Positions 58,558 through 63,765 of a stretch of DNA of 64,000 bases are shown one piece after another (position 1 is the first letter of the stretch; the number at the start of each line of letters is the position of its first letter). The position numbers and the translations under genes were made by a program. A model generated the notes under the pieces. That model searched no databases, had not been told where the DNA came from, and was given only the letters and a program-made list of their open reading frames with translations. Source of the DNA: Bacillus sp. 103mf (GTDB lineage: Bacteria > Bacillota > Bacilli > Bacillales > Bacillaceae_G); contig NZ_FPAF01000009.1 of NCBI RefSeq assembly GCF_900116295.1, positions 1 through 64,000 of the forward strand, in the 5' to 3' direction.

Positions 58558-58686
58558 ATGAAAAAAGTAGTAATAGGTACGATTTTAACAATGGTGGCAT
58601 TAGTTGTAATAGCTAATCCGCAATATTCTCATGTACCAGATGTTTATGGACAAGCCGATGACACAGTTGAAACAGTAAATATATAA
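58558..58686 (+). CDS. nprX: NprX signalling peptide precursor, divergent pherotype
   Basis: A 42-aa pre-peptide with N-terminal export signal MKKVVIGTILTMVALVVIAN, then PQYSHVPDVYGQADD and TVETVNI. In characterised strains the exported precursor is cut to a heptapeptide (SKPDIVG) that re-enters and binds NprR. The equivalent segment here is SHVPDVYG, keeping x-PD-[IV]-x-G but changed at other positions. Only 2 bp separate it from nprR, and a GGGAGGG ribosome site lies inside the nprR end, so translation is coupled. Identity is sure from position; the mature ends are inferred. Confidence 0.9.
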   Translation: MKKVVIGTILTMVALVVIANPQYSHVPDVYGQADDTVETVNI

Positions 58687-60752: not shown

Positions 60753-61298
60753 TTTTTTCTTCCATGTTTTCCACAAATAAAATAAGCCCGCGCAACCAGC
60801 AATTGTTATAATCCATTTTGCTTCACTTGTTCCGTTTATAACTTGGTAGGTAGAATACACTTCAATAAGTAGAGCCGGTATTTTCCCGAGAGTACTAGCG
60901 ATGCTAAAAGTCAGAATGGACATCGTTCCAAGGGCTGCGAATAGTGTTACGATGCCAGACGGAATAAAGGGGATGAGACGAAACGATAAAACAAGAAAGA
61001 ATGCTTCTTTTCTTTGTACATAAAGAAGTTTTTGTACTTTTGGATATTTATCTATATTTTTTTGAGCAGCTTTTTGAAAACCAAGTCGATATAAATAAAA
61101 AGAAATAATAGCTCCTAATGATTCCCCTGCAATGGAGATGAGTGTTCCTGTTGTTACTCCAAATAATGAAATGTTAATAGCAGTCAAAAAAACACTAGGA
61201 ATAATAGCTGTTAGGCTAATAAGAATATTGAATAAGATGCTAAGCGGAATTGCCATTGTTTGATGCTCTATAAGAAAAGAATGAATCGTTTCTGCCAT
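60750..61298 (-). CDS. TVP38/TMEM64-family (VTT/DedA-like) membrane protein
   Basis: A 182-aa polytopic membrane protein. It has the DedA/VTT-like core SIAGESLGAIISFYLYRLGF, then FFLVLSFRLIPFIPSGIVTL with the typical FRLIP-like motif. The family is implicated in membrane lipid or undecaprenyl handling, but no reaction is assigned for this protein. Convergent with nprA; the upstream side is a bcr repeat and the toxin gene. ATG61298 selected as the first start. Confidence 0.82.
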   Translation of the reverse strand: MAETIHSFLIEHQTMAIPLSILFNILISLTAIIPSVFLTAINISLFGVTTGTLISIAGESLGAIISFYLYRLGFQKAAQKNIDKYPKVQKLLYVQRKEAFFLVLSFRLIPFIPSGIVTLFAALGTMSILTFSIASTLGKIPALLIEVYSTYQVINGTSEAKWIITIAGCAGLFYLWKTWKKK

Positions 61299-61322
61299 AT
61301 AAATTAGTTTTCCTTTGTTTTT

Positions 61323-61545
61323 TTATATACAAGTTAAAAAACCGACATAAAACCCCCTTTCTTTTTGAGAAGACAAGAGCATCTGGCCGGGCATAGAAGC
61401 GATCAGGACCTTTTCCTGCCACATGCGAGGTTAAAACAAAGAGAGCAAACGAGTATAGGTCATGTTGTATTCTGCATAGCAGCGACTTACAAAGAAAAGC
61501 AGAGCTAGACAAAGATGCTGAAAAATTAAAATCGATTTATATAGC
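61323..61545 (+). repeat. bcr-type repeat, copy N
   Basis: Plus-orientation copy, TTATATACAAG to CGATTTATATAG. It contains both alternative 3' variants in series: AGCAGCGACTTAC and AGAGCTAGACAAAGATGCTG. The core has GAGCATCTGGCCGGGCATAG. Confidence 0.83.
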
Positions 61546-61711
61546 ATTACATCATAGTTTTTATATTAGGACAATAGAATTGTGGGAAATCATAGATTTC
61601 TTTAAAGAAAAAGTCATATTTCTATAGAAAGAATTACTAGGAAGTAACAATAGGTACGATAAAATTGACTTTTTCTAAAGATAATACAATAATCATGAAA
61701 GAGGTGATACG

Positions 61712-62218
61712 ATGAAAAGATTAGGGAATGTTATGATAAGCATCATGCTTATGATGATACTTGTATTAACTGGATGTTCAAGTCAGACTAAGCCGAAAGA
61801 AAATAATGCAGCATCAGTTGTAAACGTTAGTGATAAGATTTTAGATGAAATGGAAGGACCGCCAAAAAATGGTCATACACTAGAACGTCACGTTGGCAAA
61901 ACAGATGAGCAGTTGAAAGAACGATTACGTACAGATAATGTATCTGCCGCAAGTACATATTATGATAAAGAAACAGCAACAAAGGCGGTAAAGGATAGCT
62001 TAAAACAGCATGAAAAAGAAATTGAAAAATGGTTGAAAGAATCGAAGGAAAATCGTCTTGTATTGAATACGAAGCATAACTTTGCAGTTGGAAAAACGGT
62101 ATTAAAAAAGGATATGCGCGTAAAAGATGGACTTCGTAATACAGTAACTGTGTTGCAAAGAGATAAAGGGAGTCAGCTTGGTTTTAAAATTATTACTTCT
62201 TATCCTTCTGAGAAATAA
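61712..62218 (+). CDS. Lipoprotein with bacterial (CdiA-CT) RNase A-like toxin domain
   Basis: A 168-aa protein with a Sec signal and lipobox LTGC (Cys22). A short linker leads to a domain of about 110 residues starting GHTLERHVGKTDEQLKERL. The LERHVGKTDEQL start, ISAAS-like VSAASTYYDKETATKAV and final IITSYPS match, from memory, the bacterial CdiA-CT RNase A fold (Pfam RNAse_A_bac). The expected His/Arg/Thr/Tyr catalytic set has candidates His60, Arg71, Thr162, Tyr164. This domain normally ends large polymorphic toxins; here it is stand-alone and membrane-tethered. A small gene follows after 16 bp. Activity is inferred. Confidence 0.75.
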   Translation: MKRLGNVMISIMLMMILVLTGCSSQTKPKENNAASVVNVSDKILDEMEGPPKNGHTLERHVGKTDEQLKERLRTDNVSAASTYYDKETATKAVKDSLKQHEKEIEKWLKESKENRLVLNTKHNFAVGKTVLKKDMRVKDGLRNTVTVLQRDKGSQLGFKIITSYPSEK

Positions 62219-62234
62219 GAAAGGCAGGGAATTT

Positions 62235-62507
62235 ATGTATTCAACATTTCAATATTTTCTTAGAGCGTATTGTACATTAAGTATATATGAAGAAGAAATG
62301 GCTCATCTTATGCAACAATTTAAAGAACAGGAAGAACAAGAAACGCAGGAAAAATTATTACAAGAATTTGCTCAAATGCAAAAAAGAGAAGATTGGAAGA
62401 AAGTAAGGAAAGAAGCTGAACAATATGGAAATCGTATGTGGACAATAGAAGAAGCAAAAGTACATATCGGTAATTTTATTTCTATATTACAAAACAAAAA
62501 GGCGTGA
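62235..62507 (+). CDS. Likely immunity protein for RNase A-like lipoprotein
   Basis: A 90-aa cytoplasmic, all-helical, Glu-rich protein (EEEMAHLMQQFKEQEEQETQ) with no signal peptide, ending in IGNFISILQNKKA. I do not recognise its family. It starts 16 bp after the toxin-domain lipoprotein with AGGCAGGGA upstream, is the only other gene in the unit, and has the size and compartment expected of an immunity protein for a secreted RNase. ATG62235 is preferred; the longer in-frame ORF from 62178 overlaps the toxin gene. Confidence 0.6.
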   Translation: MYSTFQYFLRAYCTLSIYEEEMAHLMQQFKEQEEQETQEKLLQEFAQMQKREDWKKVRKEAEQYGNRMWTIEEAKVHIGNFISILQNKKA

Positions 62508-62525
62508 ATCATCCCGCCTTTTTGT
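62496..62525. terminator. Bidirectional terminator, immunity / VanW
   Basis: AAAAAGGCG and CGCCTTTTT flank TGAATCATCC; both convergent genes end inside or at the hairpin. Confidence 0.83.
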
Positions 62526-63765
62526 ATGTGCTTTTTGAAATTTGACCGCTCGAGAGCACTTGCCCATTTTGTGTTACTTTTTTATATGTTACAGCCACAA
62601 TGCTTTTATCAGTTTCACTTATAACTTTCGAAGAAACCTCTACATTTTTTCCTGTATTTGTACCGAAAATACGAGCAGTTACACTACTGCCACTCGTGAA
62701 TGCTTGAATATAAATATATTTACCCGTATTATTTTTAAATTTCAAATCAGGGCCGTAGTCAGCAACTGCTGCATCTTGCCCAAGAGGTAAGTAATGGACC
62801 GGTAAAGAATGATTACTTCGAGCTACAACTCCTAAATCAGCTCGTAATACGGCACCATATAATGTGCTGCTTAATTGGCAAACACCACCCCCAGCACTTT
62901 GTTCTACTTTTCCGTTTACATATATACCTGCTGATTTATAACCATGTGCTGCATCTGTTATGCCAACACGACCATTAAAACTAAATGTCTCATCGGGTGC
63001 AACAAATACTCCCGTTAATGTATCGGCAGCACGTTCTACATTAAAAGTTTGACTTGAGTTTCGTCCAGCCAGTGGGGTAGAGTATTCAGCGATTACTTCT
63101 TGAATCCCCATCTTTTTTACATCTTCTGTTGAGCGCTCGGGTTTCAAGGCTGTAATTGGAACTTGAATATCTTGTTTATTTGTCGTAATGGCTTCTGTTG
63201 TGAGAGATTTTAATTTCTCTTTATCAACTTTTTCACCATCTTTACTTTCACTAATATTAATTGTTGTTCCAGAAATAGATAAGTCGGCATTAATAGGTTC
63301 TACTAAGGAATCATTATATTTTTCCTTAATAAATGCATCATATTTTGCTGCGTTTATAGAAGGCTCTAACTTATAGTCGCGTTTTAATTCACCTGTTTCA
63401 GCTTGTTTTCTCATTTTATAACGACTAGAAATATTGCCCTTTTGTTCTTTAAAAATTTTATCTGCAACATCTGTACTGTTATATTCAACCCCTAATTCTT
63501 GCCAAGTATATGTATGTTTGTCATCCTGTAAGGCATAATTCACAGATTTTTTATTTAACTCATCAATTTTTTGTTGAATTATTTTTTGAACGTCTGCTTT
63601 CTTTTTCCCATCTATGGAAATACCTTCAAATGTTGTGTGGGGTAAAACGTATGTATCTAACTGATGATTTAATTTGGACACATATTGATAAGCGCTAACA
63701 CCACCACCACAAAGAATGATTCCACCAGCAATCGCAGAACCAATAATCAAATTGCGTAATTTCAT
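62509..63765 (-). CDS. VanW-family protein (YoaR-like)
   Basis: A 418-aa surface protein with an N-terminal membrane helix (residues 6-26), a putative peptidoglycan-binding region of the PG_binding_4 type (residues 60-200), and a C-terminal VanW domain. The VanW domain runs from TFNVERAADTLTGVFVAPDE through GRVGITDAAHGYKSAGIYVN to GGGVCQLSSTLYGAVLRADL. VanW is associated with some vancomycin-resistance loci but has no established reaction. It is convergent with the toxin/immunity unit. CGGAGGG lies before the ATG. Confidence 0.9.
   Translation of the reverse strand: MKLRNLIIGSAIAGGIILCGGGVSAYQYVSKLNHQLDTYVLPHTTFEGISIDGKKKADVQKIIQQKIDELNKKSVNYALQDDKHTYTWQELGVEYNSTDVADKIFKEQKGNISSRYKMRKQAETGELKRDYKLEPSINAAKYDAFIKEKYNDSLVEPINADLSISGTTINISESKDGEKVDKEKLKSLTTEAITTNKQDIQVPITALKPERSTEDVKKMGIQEVIAEYSTPLAGRNSSQTFNVERAADTLTGVFVAPDETFSFNGRVGITDAAHGYKSAGIYVNGKVEQSAGGGVCQLSSTLYGAVLRADLGVVARSNHSLPVHYLPLGQDAAVADYGPDLKFKNNTGKYIYIQAFTSGSSVTARIFGTNTGKNVEVSSKVISETDKSIVAVTYKKVTQNGQVLSSGQISKSTYKKAG

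Follow-up and report, generated by a model that had tools for sequence, protein, structure and literature searches.

What does a Gram-positive bacterium do with the ribonuclease (RNase) domain of a polymorphic toxin when it carries this domain in a small lipoprotein, beside an immunity-type gene and with no delivery module? The question is raised by two genes at 61712..62507 of the window, i.e. the whole analysed stretch of 64,000 nucleotides (1 to 64,000) of contig NZ_FPAF01000009.1 from Bacillus sp. 103mf (GCF_900116295.1). The first gene (61712..62218, + strand) encodes a lipoprotein of 168 amino acids (aa) with a bacterial RNase A domain, identified with NF041883, PF18431 and an AlphaFold2 (AF2) model. 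The second (62235..62507, +) encodes a 90-aa partner without signal peptide, a predicted inhibitor. The favoured explanation, to which we give a probability of about 0.6, is that both products work like barnase and barstar with a lipid-anchored enzyme, and that such a pair was taken from polymorphic-toxin cassettes at least twice. The coordinates of the open reading frames, the 16 bases between the stop of the first and the start of the second, the lipobox, the motifs and the numbering of H60, R71, T162 and Y164 were all as given in a preliminary description of the locus.

The lipoprotein matched the PF18431 profile with 9e-29 and 101 bits (cut-off 27) over positions 1-113 of 113. With NF041883, the match was 9.8e-97 and 321.8 bits (cut-off 200) over residues 1-168 of 168. 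The AF2 model had a mean confidence (pLDDT) of 84.8 with ten-residue blocks of 91-98 from residue 61 onward. It gave a strong structural match, and the best structure was of RNase A type with the fold of PDB 5e3e. The catalytic domain (61871..62215, +) contains H60, R71, T162 and Y164, which align with His175, Arg186, Thr276 and Tyr278 of CdiA-CT and are kept in 7/7 lipoprotein loci including the window. Given both profile values and the conservation of the active-site residues in relatives, the identity of the enzyme is beyond chance: the lipoprotein carries a bacterial RNase A domain with its fold and catalytic set, and RNase activity is predicted. The preliminary description had proposed this fold and these residues, and the profile search that it suggested as well as the structural match bear it out. 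It had also named two findings that would speak against it, a missing fold match and close homologues with varying catalytic residues and no downstream gene. Neither arose, and the downstream gene is likewise kept in all seven loci.

The N-terminus (61712..61777, +) is a lipoprotein signal peptide with the lipobox L-T-G-C up to the predicted lipidated Cys22. The Gram-positive lipoprotein pattern matched all seven lipoproteins. Lipidation at Cys22 is thus predicted by motif, in line with the anchoring first proposed. The mature protein of 147 aa starts with a tether of 31 residues from Cys22 to the Gly-His start of the domain (61778..61870, +), which includes the motif ILDEMEGPPKN. The tether has 27-31 residues in the seven lipoproteins and 34 in L108, a separate lipoprotein described below. 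The ratio of nonsynonymous to synonymous substitutions (dN/dS) of the enzyme was approx. 0.10 and 0.15 in two pairs of relatives, so the enzyme is under purifying selection; a third pair (window and Ectobacillus) was saturated.

The 90-aa partner was unlisted at E values up to 10 when compared with PF18593 (CdiI_2, cut-off 26.7 bits). Of its six orthologues linked to lipoproteins, five were scanned; they matched this profile with 14.2 to 26.4 bits, none of them above the cut-off. Judged by these orthologues, the window partner is classed as a divergent relative of CdiI_2 and not among the proteins of the Pfam family itself. Its predicted structure adopts the CdiI fold, as seen in the second chain of the 5e3e complex. 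The partners are acidic and free of membrane segments and the enzyme domains basic in 7/7 lipoprotein loci. On another view, the 90-aa gene merely happens to lie there, its helical fold is a widespread one, and the lipoprotein lacks an inhibitor. The missing confident family match of the window copy, the weak Foldseek E value and a profile match to immunity proteins of FHQD type that is likewise weak would be in its favour. The kinship of the orthologues to CdiI_2, the fold of the 5e3e partner, the conserved pairing and the co-inheritance leave this explanation with a minimal probability. The immunity nature first suggested for the gene is supported by the same fold, kinship and pairing, and its product is predicted to inhibit the enzyme.

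Relatives were sought by the RNase domain. In the seven NF041883-type loci, the window included, a partner gene always follows 0-16 bases downstream of the lipoprotein gene. Across the 26 loci where the RNase A domain is complete and the downstream gene was read, a same-strand gene for 86-109 aa starts at most 30 bases from the stop (26/26). Thirteen of these 26 partners were judged against Pfam, eight by alignment and five by eye. Compared with Pfam CdiI_2, four of the thirteen passed the cut-off, eight stayed below it and the window partner had no match. The distances of enzyme and partner were strongly correlated in Mantel tests with r 0.912 (19 pairs, p 0.0001), r 0.877 after removal of near-copies (16 pairs, p 0.0001) and r 0.796 within the seven lipoproteins (p 0.0035). 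One result speaks against strict pairing: 14 of 17 further loci with partner relatives have no RNase A gene directly upstream (L081, L084-L089, L091-L093, L098, L100-L102; L086 is interrupted by a stop). Among the three exceptions, L082 was assigned from coordinates of the PF18431 survey. The partner relatives without an upstream enzyme look like orphan immunity genes.

PF18431 was surveyed in overlapping samples of 397 genomes of the order, 398 of the phylum and 19 of one family. Matches were found in 21/397 (20 over cut-off), 3/398 (two over cut-off) and 1/19 genomes, respectively, and in 0/14 control genomes. NF041883 exceeded its cut-off in 2/34, 2/16 and 1/26 genomes of three families. 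In the class, 17/348 genomes had some match and one was over the cut-off. Outside the window, there are six stand-alone lipoproteins of NF041883 type, namely L064 (Ectobacillus panaciterrae), L043, L044, L045, L046 and L062. Weak or incomplete PF18431 matches (L029-L035, L037-L040, L042) and partial or signal-only NF041883 matches were left out of counts and trees. The match in L042 is probably false, the frame being RNase R by eye, and in L037/L106 the toxin gene is truncated and its partner lies 180 bases further on. The lipoprotein had no relative in a collection of genome contigs that apparently includes no member of the B. cereus group; the VanW neighbour found 13 loci in the same collection, none from this group.

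The six matches among 72,556 plasmid records all had less than 40% identity and none covered 80% of the query; these records therefore contain no plasmid copy of the lipoprotein. No match was found in 50,697 phage records. Positions 61712-62215 match the C-terminal part (343-475 of 476) of the phage protein family phrog_25038 with E 3.3e-16, so that large proteins with this RNase domain do exist in some phages or prophages. The phage data bear on an intracellular role, in which the pair would be a toxin-antitoxin, self-directed RNA-turnover or anti-phage module and, on failure of the partner, uncleaved or misrouted enzyme would act in the cytoplasm. An operon of two genes, one of them for an inhibitor predicted to be cytoplasmic, agrees with such a role. 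So does the faster evolution of the partner, with dN/dS values of 0.45 and 0.33 in the two pairs measured for the enzyme. We still regard it as quite improbable, as signal peptide and lipobox occur in 7/7 lipoproteins and again in L108, the best hit in the anti-phage library was a weak one to AbiEi (E 0.0082) and the phage records lack the lipoprotein, though phrog_25038 shares the domain. Moreover, the toxin gene comes first here. In most toxin-antitoxin operons, the antitoxin gene precedes the toxin gene.

The lipoprotein form arose at least twice, in two lineages. The seven lipoprotein genes cluster in both 20-row trees (support 79/66 for the enzyme, 90/86 for the partner), with the pre-toxin-TG protein L063 next to them (86/88 and 94/98, respectively). 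They had 92/93 in a 26-row enzyme tree, in which the bootstrap was incompletely settled and a Pantoea plasmid row was omitted for its long branch. L108 comes from another Bacilli family, where the domain is present in 1/23 genomes. It has an LTAC lipobox and, with 69 bits, lies outside NF041883 despite the same lipoprotein build. A second origin was suspected from its sequence before the 26-row tree was made. The L108 domain groups with LXG-type toxins (side support 95/97; 96/88 with L074), its neighbour 8 bases downstream encodes an FHQD-subtype CdiI_2 protein (7.5e-16), and a single clade of all eight lipoproteins was rejected (p 0.0057). Two origins follow from these three results. Around the L108 pair (L117 554-4100 and 7952-10704), there are several further genes that look like lipoprotein genes, as well as two of unknown type whose products have similar N-termini.

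A scan of eight proteins assigned L065 to LXG, L063, L068 and L070 to pre-toxin TG and L072 to proteins with peptidoglycan-binding repeats, while only the RNase domain was recognised in L067, L071 and L074. The architecture labels in the trees are partly by eye, including RHS-like for L107. Since most of the remaining proteins whose architecture was read are larger and resemble toxins, the simplest direction of change in this unrooted tree would be that lipoprotein signals captured toxin cassettes. The tether fits such a capture, as its [IF]LD.ME is similar, by eye, to the junction that precedes this RNase subtype in L063, L106 and L107. In L107, the RHS-like toxin (1-1926) ends in the RNase subtype of the window and a window-type partner (1923-2213) overlaps its stop by 4 bases. 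A single RNase A subtype, each time followed by a CdiI-like gene, occurs in L072 (7169-8446), L105 (607-1896) and L073 (5658-6248). It is fused to peptidoglycan-binding repeats (PF01471) in L072 and, by eye, in L105, and a frame of this kind lies immediately upstream in L073. This is perhaps a third envelope-bound form of the enzyme.

Where the enzyme acts, on which substrate and for what purpose we infer as follows. The prolipoprotein would be exported by Sec and receive its lipid at Cys22. Because approx. 30 residues lie between lipid and enzyme, the RNase A-like domain is expected near the outer face of the cytoplasmic membrane, where the tether would keep it inside the wall. As a first guess, it would cleave RNA arriving at the inner wall zone, either incoming or from lysed neighbours. 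The 90-aa product would remain in the cytoplasm and block the active site of enzyme that folds before export or re-enters, as CdiI does on CdiA-CT. Both genes would have been acquired as a unit from LXG, pre-toxin-TG or RHS-like toxin/immunity cassettes.

The protein could also be a competition toxin that enters neighbours after proteolytic release or lysis, or by vesicles or lipoprotein exchange, with the 90-aa product as immunity protein in the manner of SitA/SitI. The kinship of domain and partner to toxin/immunity cassettes, the patchy distribution and the enzyme-less partner relatives are in favour of this possibility, and SitAI itself is a precedent for lipoprotein toxins with downstream immunity genes (parts seen of PMC5562445 and PMC8546572). 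It is nevertheless doubtful. An escort domain of approx. 375 aa sets the entry path of SitA, according to the part of PMC8546572 seen, and it compares with 27-34 tether residues here. The enzyme is under purifying selection, and no delivery gene was recognised beside the pair, neither by scanning the neighbours in the window nor by eye at the other loci. A variant in which the lipid anchor itself is the delivery device, via vesicles or membrane transfer, is less likely again; it would amount to an escort-free, SitA/SitI-like kin discrimination of Gram-positives, with the cassette converted at least twice. The preliminary interpretation thus stood in part. The fold, the anchoring (by motif), the immunity gene and the absence of a delivery module held; signal peptide and tether stand in place of an LXG/WXG N-terminus, and there is no CdiB or large CdiA. 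The proposed contact-dependent competition was not supported, as no entry or delivery function was recognised in or beside the protein and the tether is this short.

The pair lies between a VTT gene and a VanW-domain gene, and the latter is convergent with the operon. An RBS-like stretch (61699..61709, +) was read in the sequence before the lipoprotein start. Promoter-like sites in 61200-62700 were at chance level (5 found, 5.9 expected). A hairpin with a U tail on both strands (62488..62530) is probably a terminator shared with the VanW gene; at ~62494-62525, it had -16.7 and -18.2 kcal/mol and z scores of -5.97 and -7.17 against shuffles on the two strands. A scan for consensus terminators did not list it, probably because the scan accepts only shorter loops. 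As the hairpin is placed between the operon and the convergent VanW gene, the single terminator first described after both genes holds. The flanking genes vary among the lipoprotein loci, except for the close relatives L043 and L044 and for the window and Ectobacillus panaciterrae. The latter two share the order VTT - pair - VanW, and the pair was therefore inherited in place at least there. E. panaciterrae has two VanW-domain genes (L002 and L003, 5001-6257), both ~65% identical to that of the window, and only the L002 copy adjoins the RNase pair.

The proximity to nprRX-nprA, which had been noted as possibly due to chance, does look like chance. A link as conserved context was rejected, since one thermolysin motif was absent from the surroundings (9-13 kb) of the six lipoprotein loci outside the window. 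The part seen of the NprR paper PMC3325205 does not contain the word 'lipoprotein'. A small signal-peptide frame after nprR (58558-58686) is probably the NprX pheromone precursor and contains the stretch SHVPDVYG. This is unlike SKPDIVG, the NprX form of B. thuringiensis.

NCBI has already named the lipoprotein family, and neither the fold nor the type of immunity protein is new. The domain, fold and catalytic residues of the window protein, the fold and kinship of its partner, the conserved pairing and the two lipoprotein lineages were computed here. In one open-access library, no paper was found that deals with an RNase A lipoprotein and its inhibitor in Gram-positives, or with the repeated origin. 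An immunity-type gene was retained in two separate lineages while the delivery part was lost, which allows a direct test of whether immunity proteins serve self-protection or protection against neighbours. The pair also bears on how toxin cassettes turn into surface enzymes, and a small gene overlooked by family libraries gains a probable function.

Among known systems, NF041883, 'RNase A-like domain-containing lipoprotein', has the window protein as a full-length member. It is a computed name, and the model is silent on partner, origin and role. CdiA-CT/CdiI of Yersinia kristensenii ATCC 33638 (PDB 5e3e) has the enzyme fold, the four catalytic residues and the partner fold in common with the pair. 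In that system, the domain forms the C-terminal end of a CdiA that is exported through CdiB and delivered, whereas the 168-aa protein with VTT and VanW neighbours does not belong to the contact-dependent inhibition (CdiBAI) systems. Batot 2017 and Cuthbert 2017 are cited here in part through the review PMC9086364. LXG (L065), pre-toxin-TG (L063, L068) and RHS-like (L107, by eye) toxins of Bacilli have a homologous domain and a like downstream gene. Their N-terminal parts are larger, whereas the window protein has a lipoprotein signal and a short tether and, without an LXG/WXG N-terminus, falls outside the LXG toxins of type VII secretion (T7SS). SitA/SitI of Myxococcus xanthus resembles the pair, by motif and kinship, in that the gene of a lipoprotein nuclease toxin is followed by an immunity gene. 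It differs by its escort domain, in place of which the window protein has the 31-residue tether, by its polymorphic toxin families and by TraAB outer-membrane exchange, a route closed to a Gram-positive without outer membrane.

The Ribocin (RbcN) of Pseudomonas aeruginosa is a stand-alone RNase A-like protein with a signal peptide and the same His/Thr/Tyr logic, has 15% identity to CdiA-CT and cleaves host rRNA (part seen of PMC13189344). As this member of the fold acts on animal ribosomes, the window enzyme might be directed against eukaryotic cells as well. This is very unlikely, given that the enzyme is predicted to be anchored and not soluble, that homologues occur in several Bacillales families with varied neighbourhoods and that an immunity-type gene is kept; the word 'immunity' occurs twice in the Ribocin text (for host immunity and in a reference title), 'antitoxin' and 'lipoprotein' do not occur, and the part seen describes no immunity partner. 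The favoured comparison remains that with barnase and barstar, although the window domain, of RNase A type by family and best structure, is no kin of barnase. Barnase is an exported RNase with a cytoplasmic inhibitor and no polymorphic delivery protein, and it is freely secreted. Simple barnase-barstar pairs are viewed as an incipient toxin-immunity order (part seen of PMC3482391). The window pair shares this arrangement alone, with other folds and families and with an enzyme that is predicted to be held at the membrane by its lipid.
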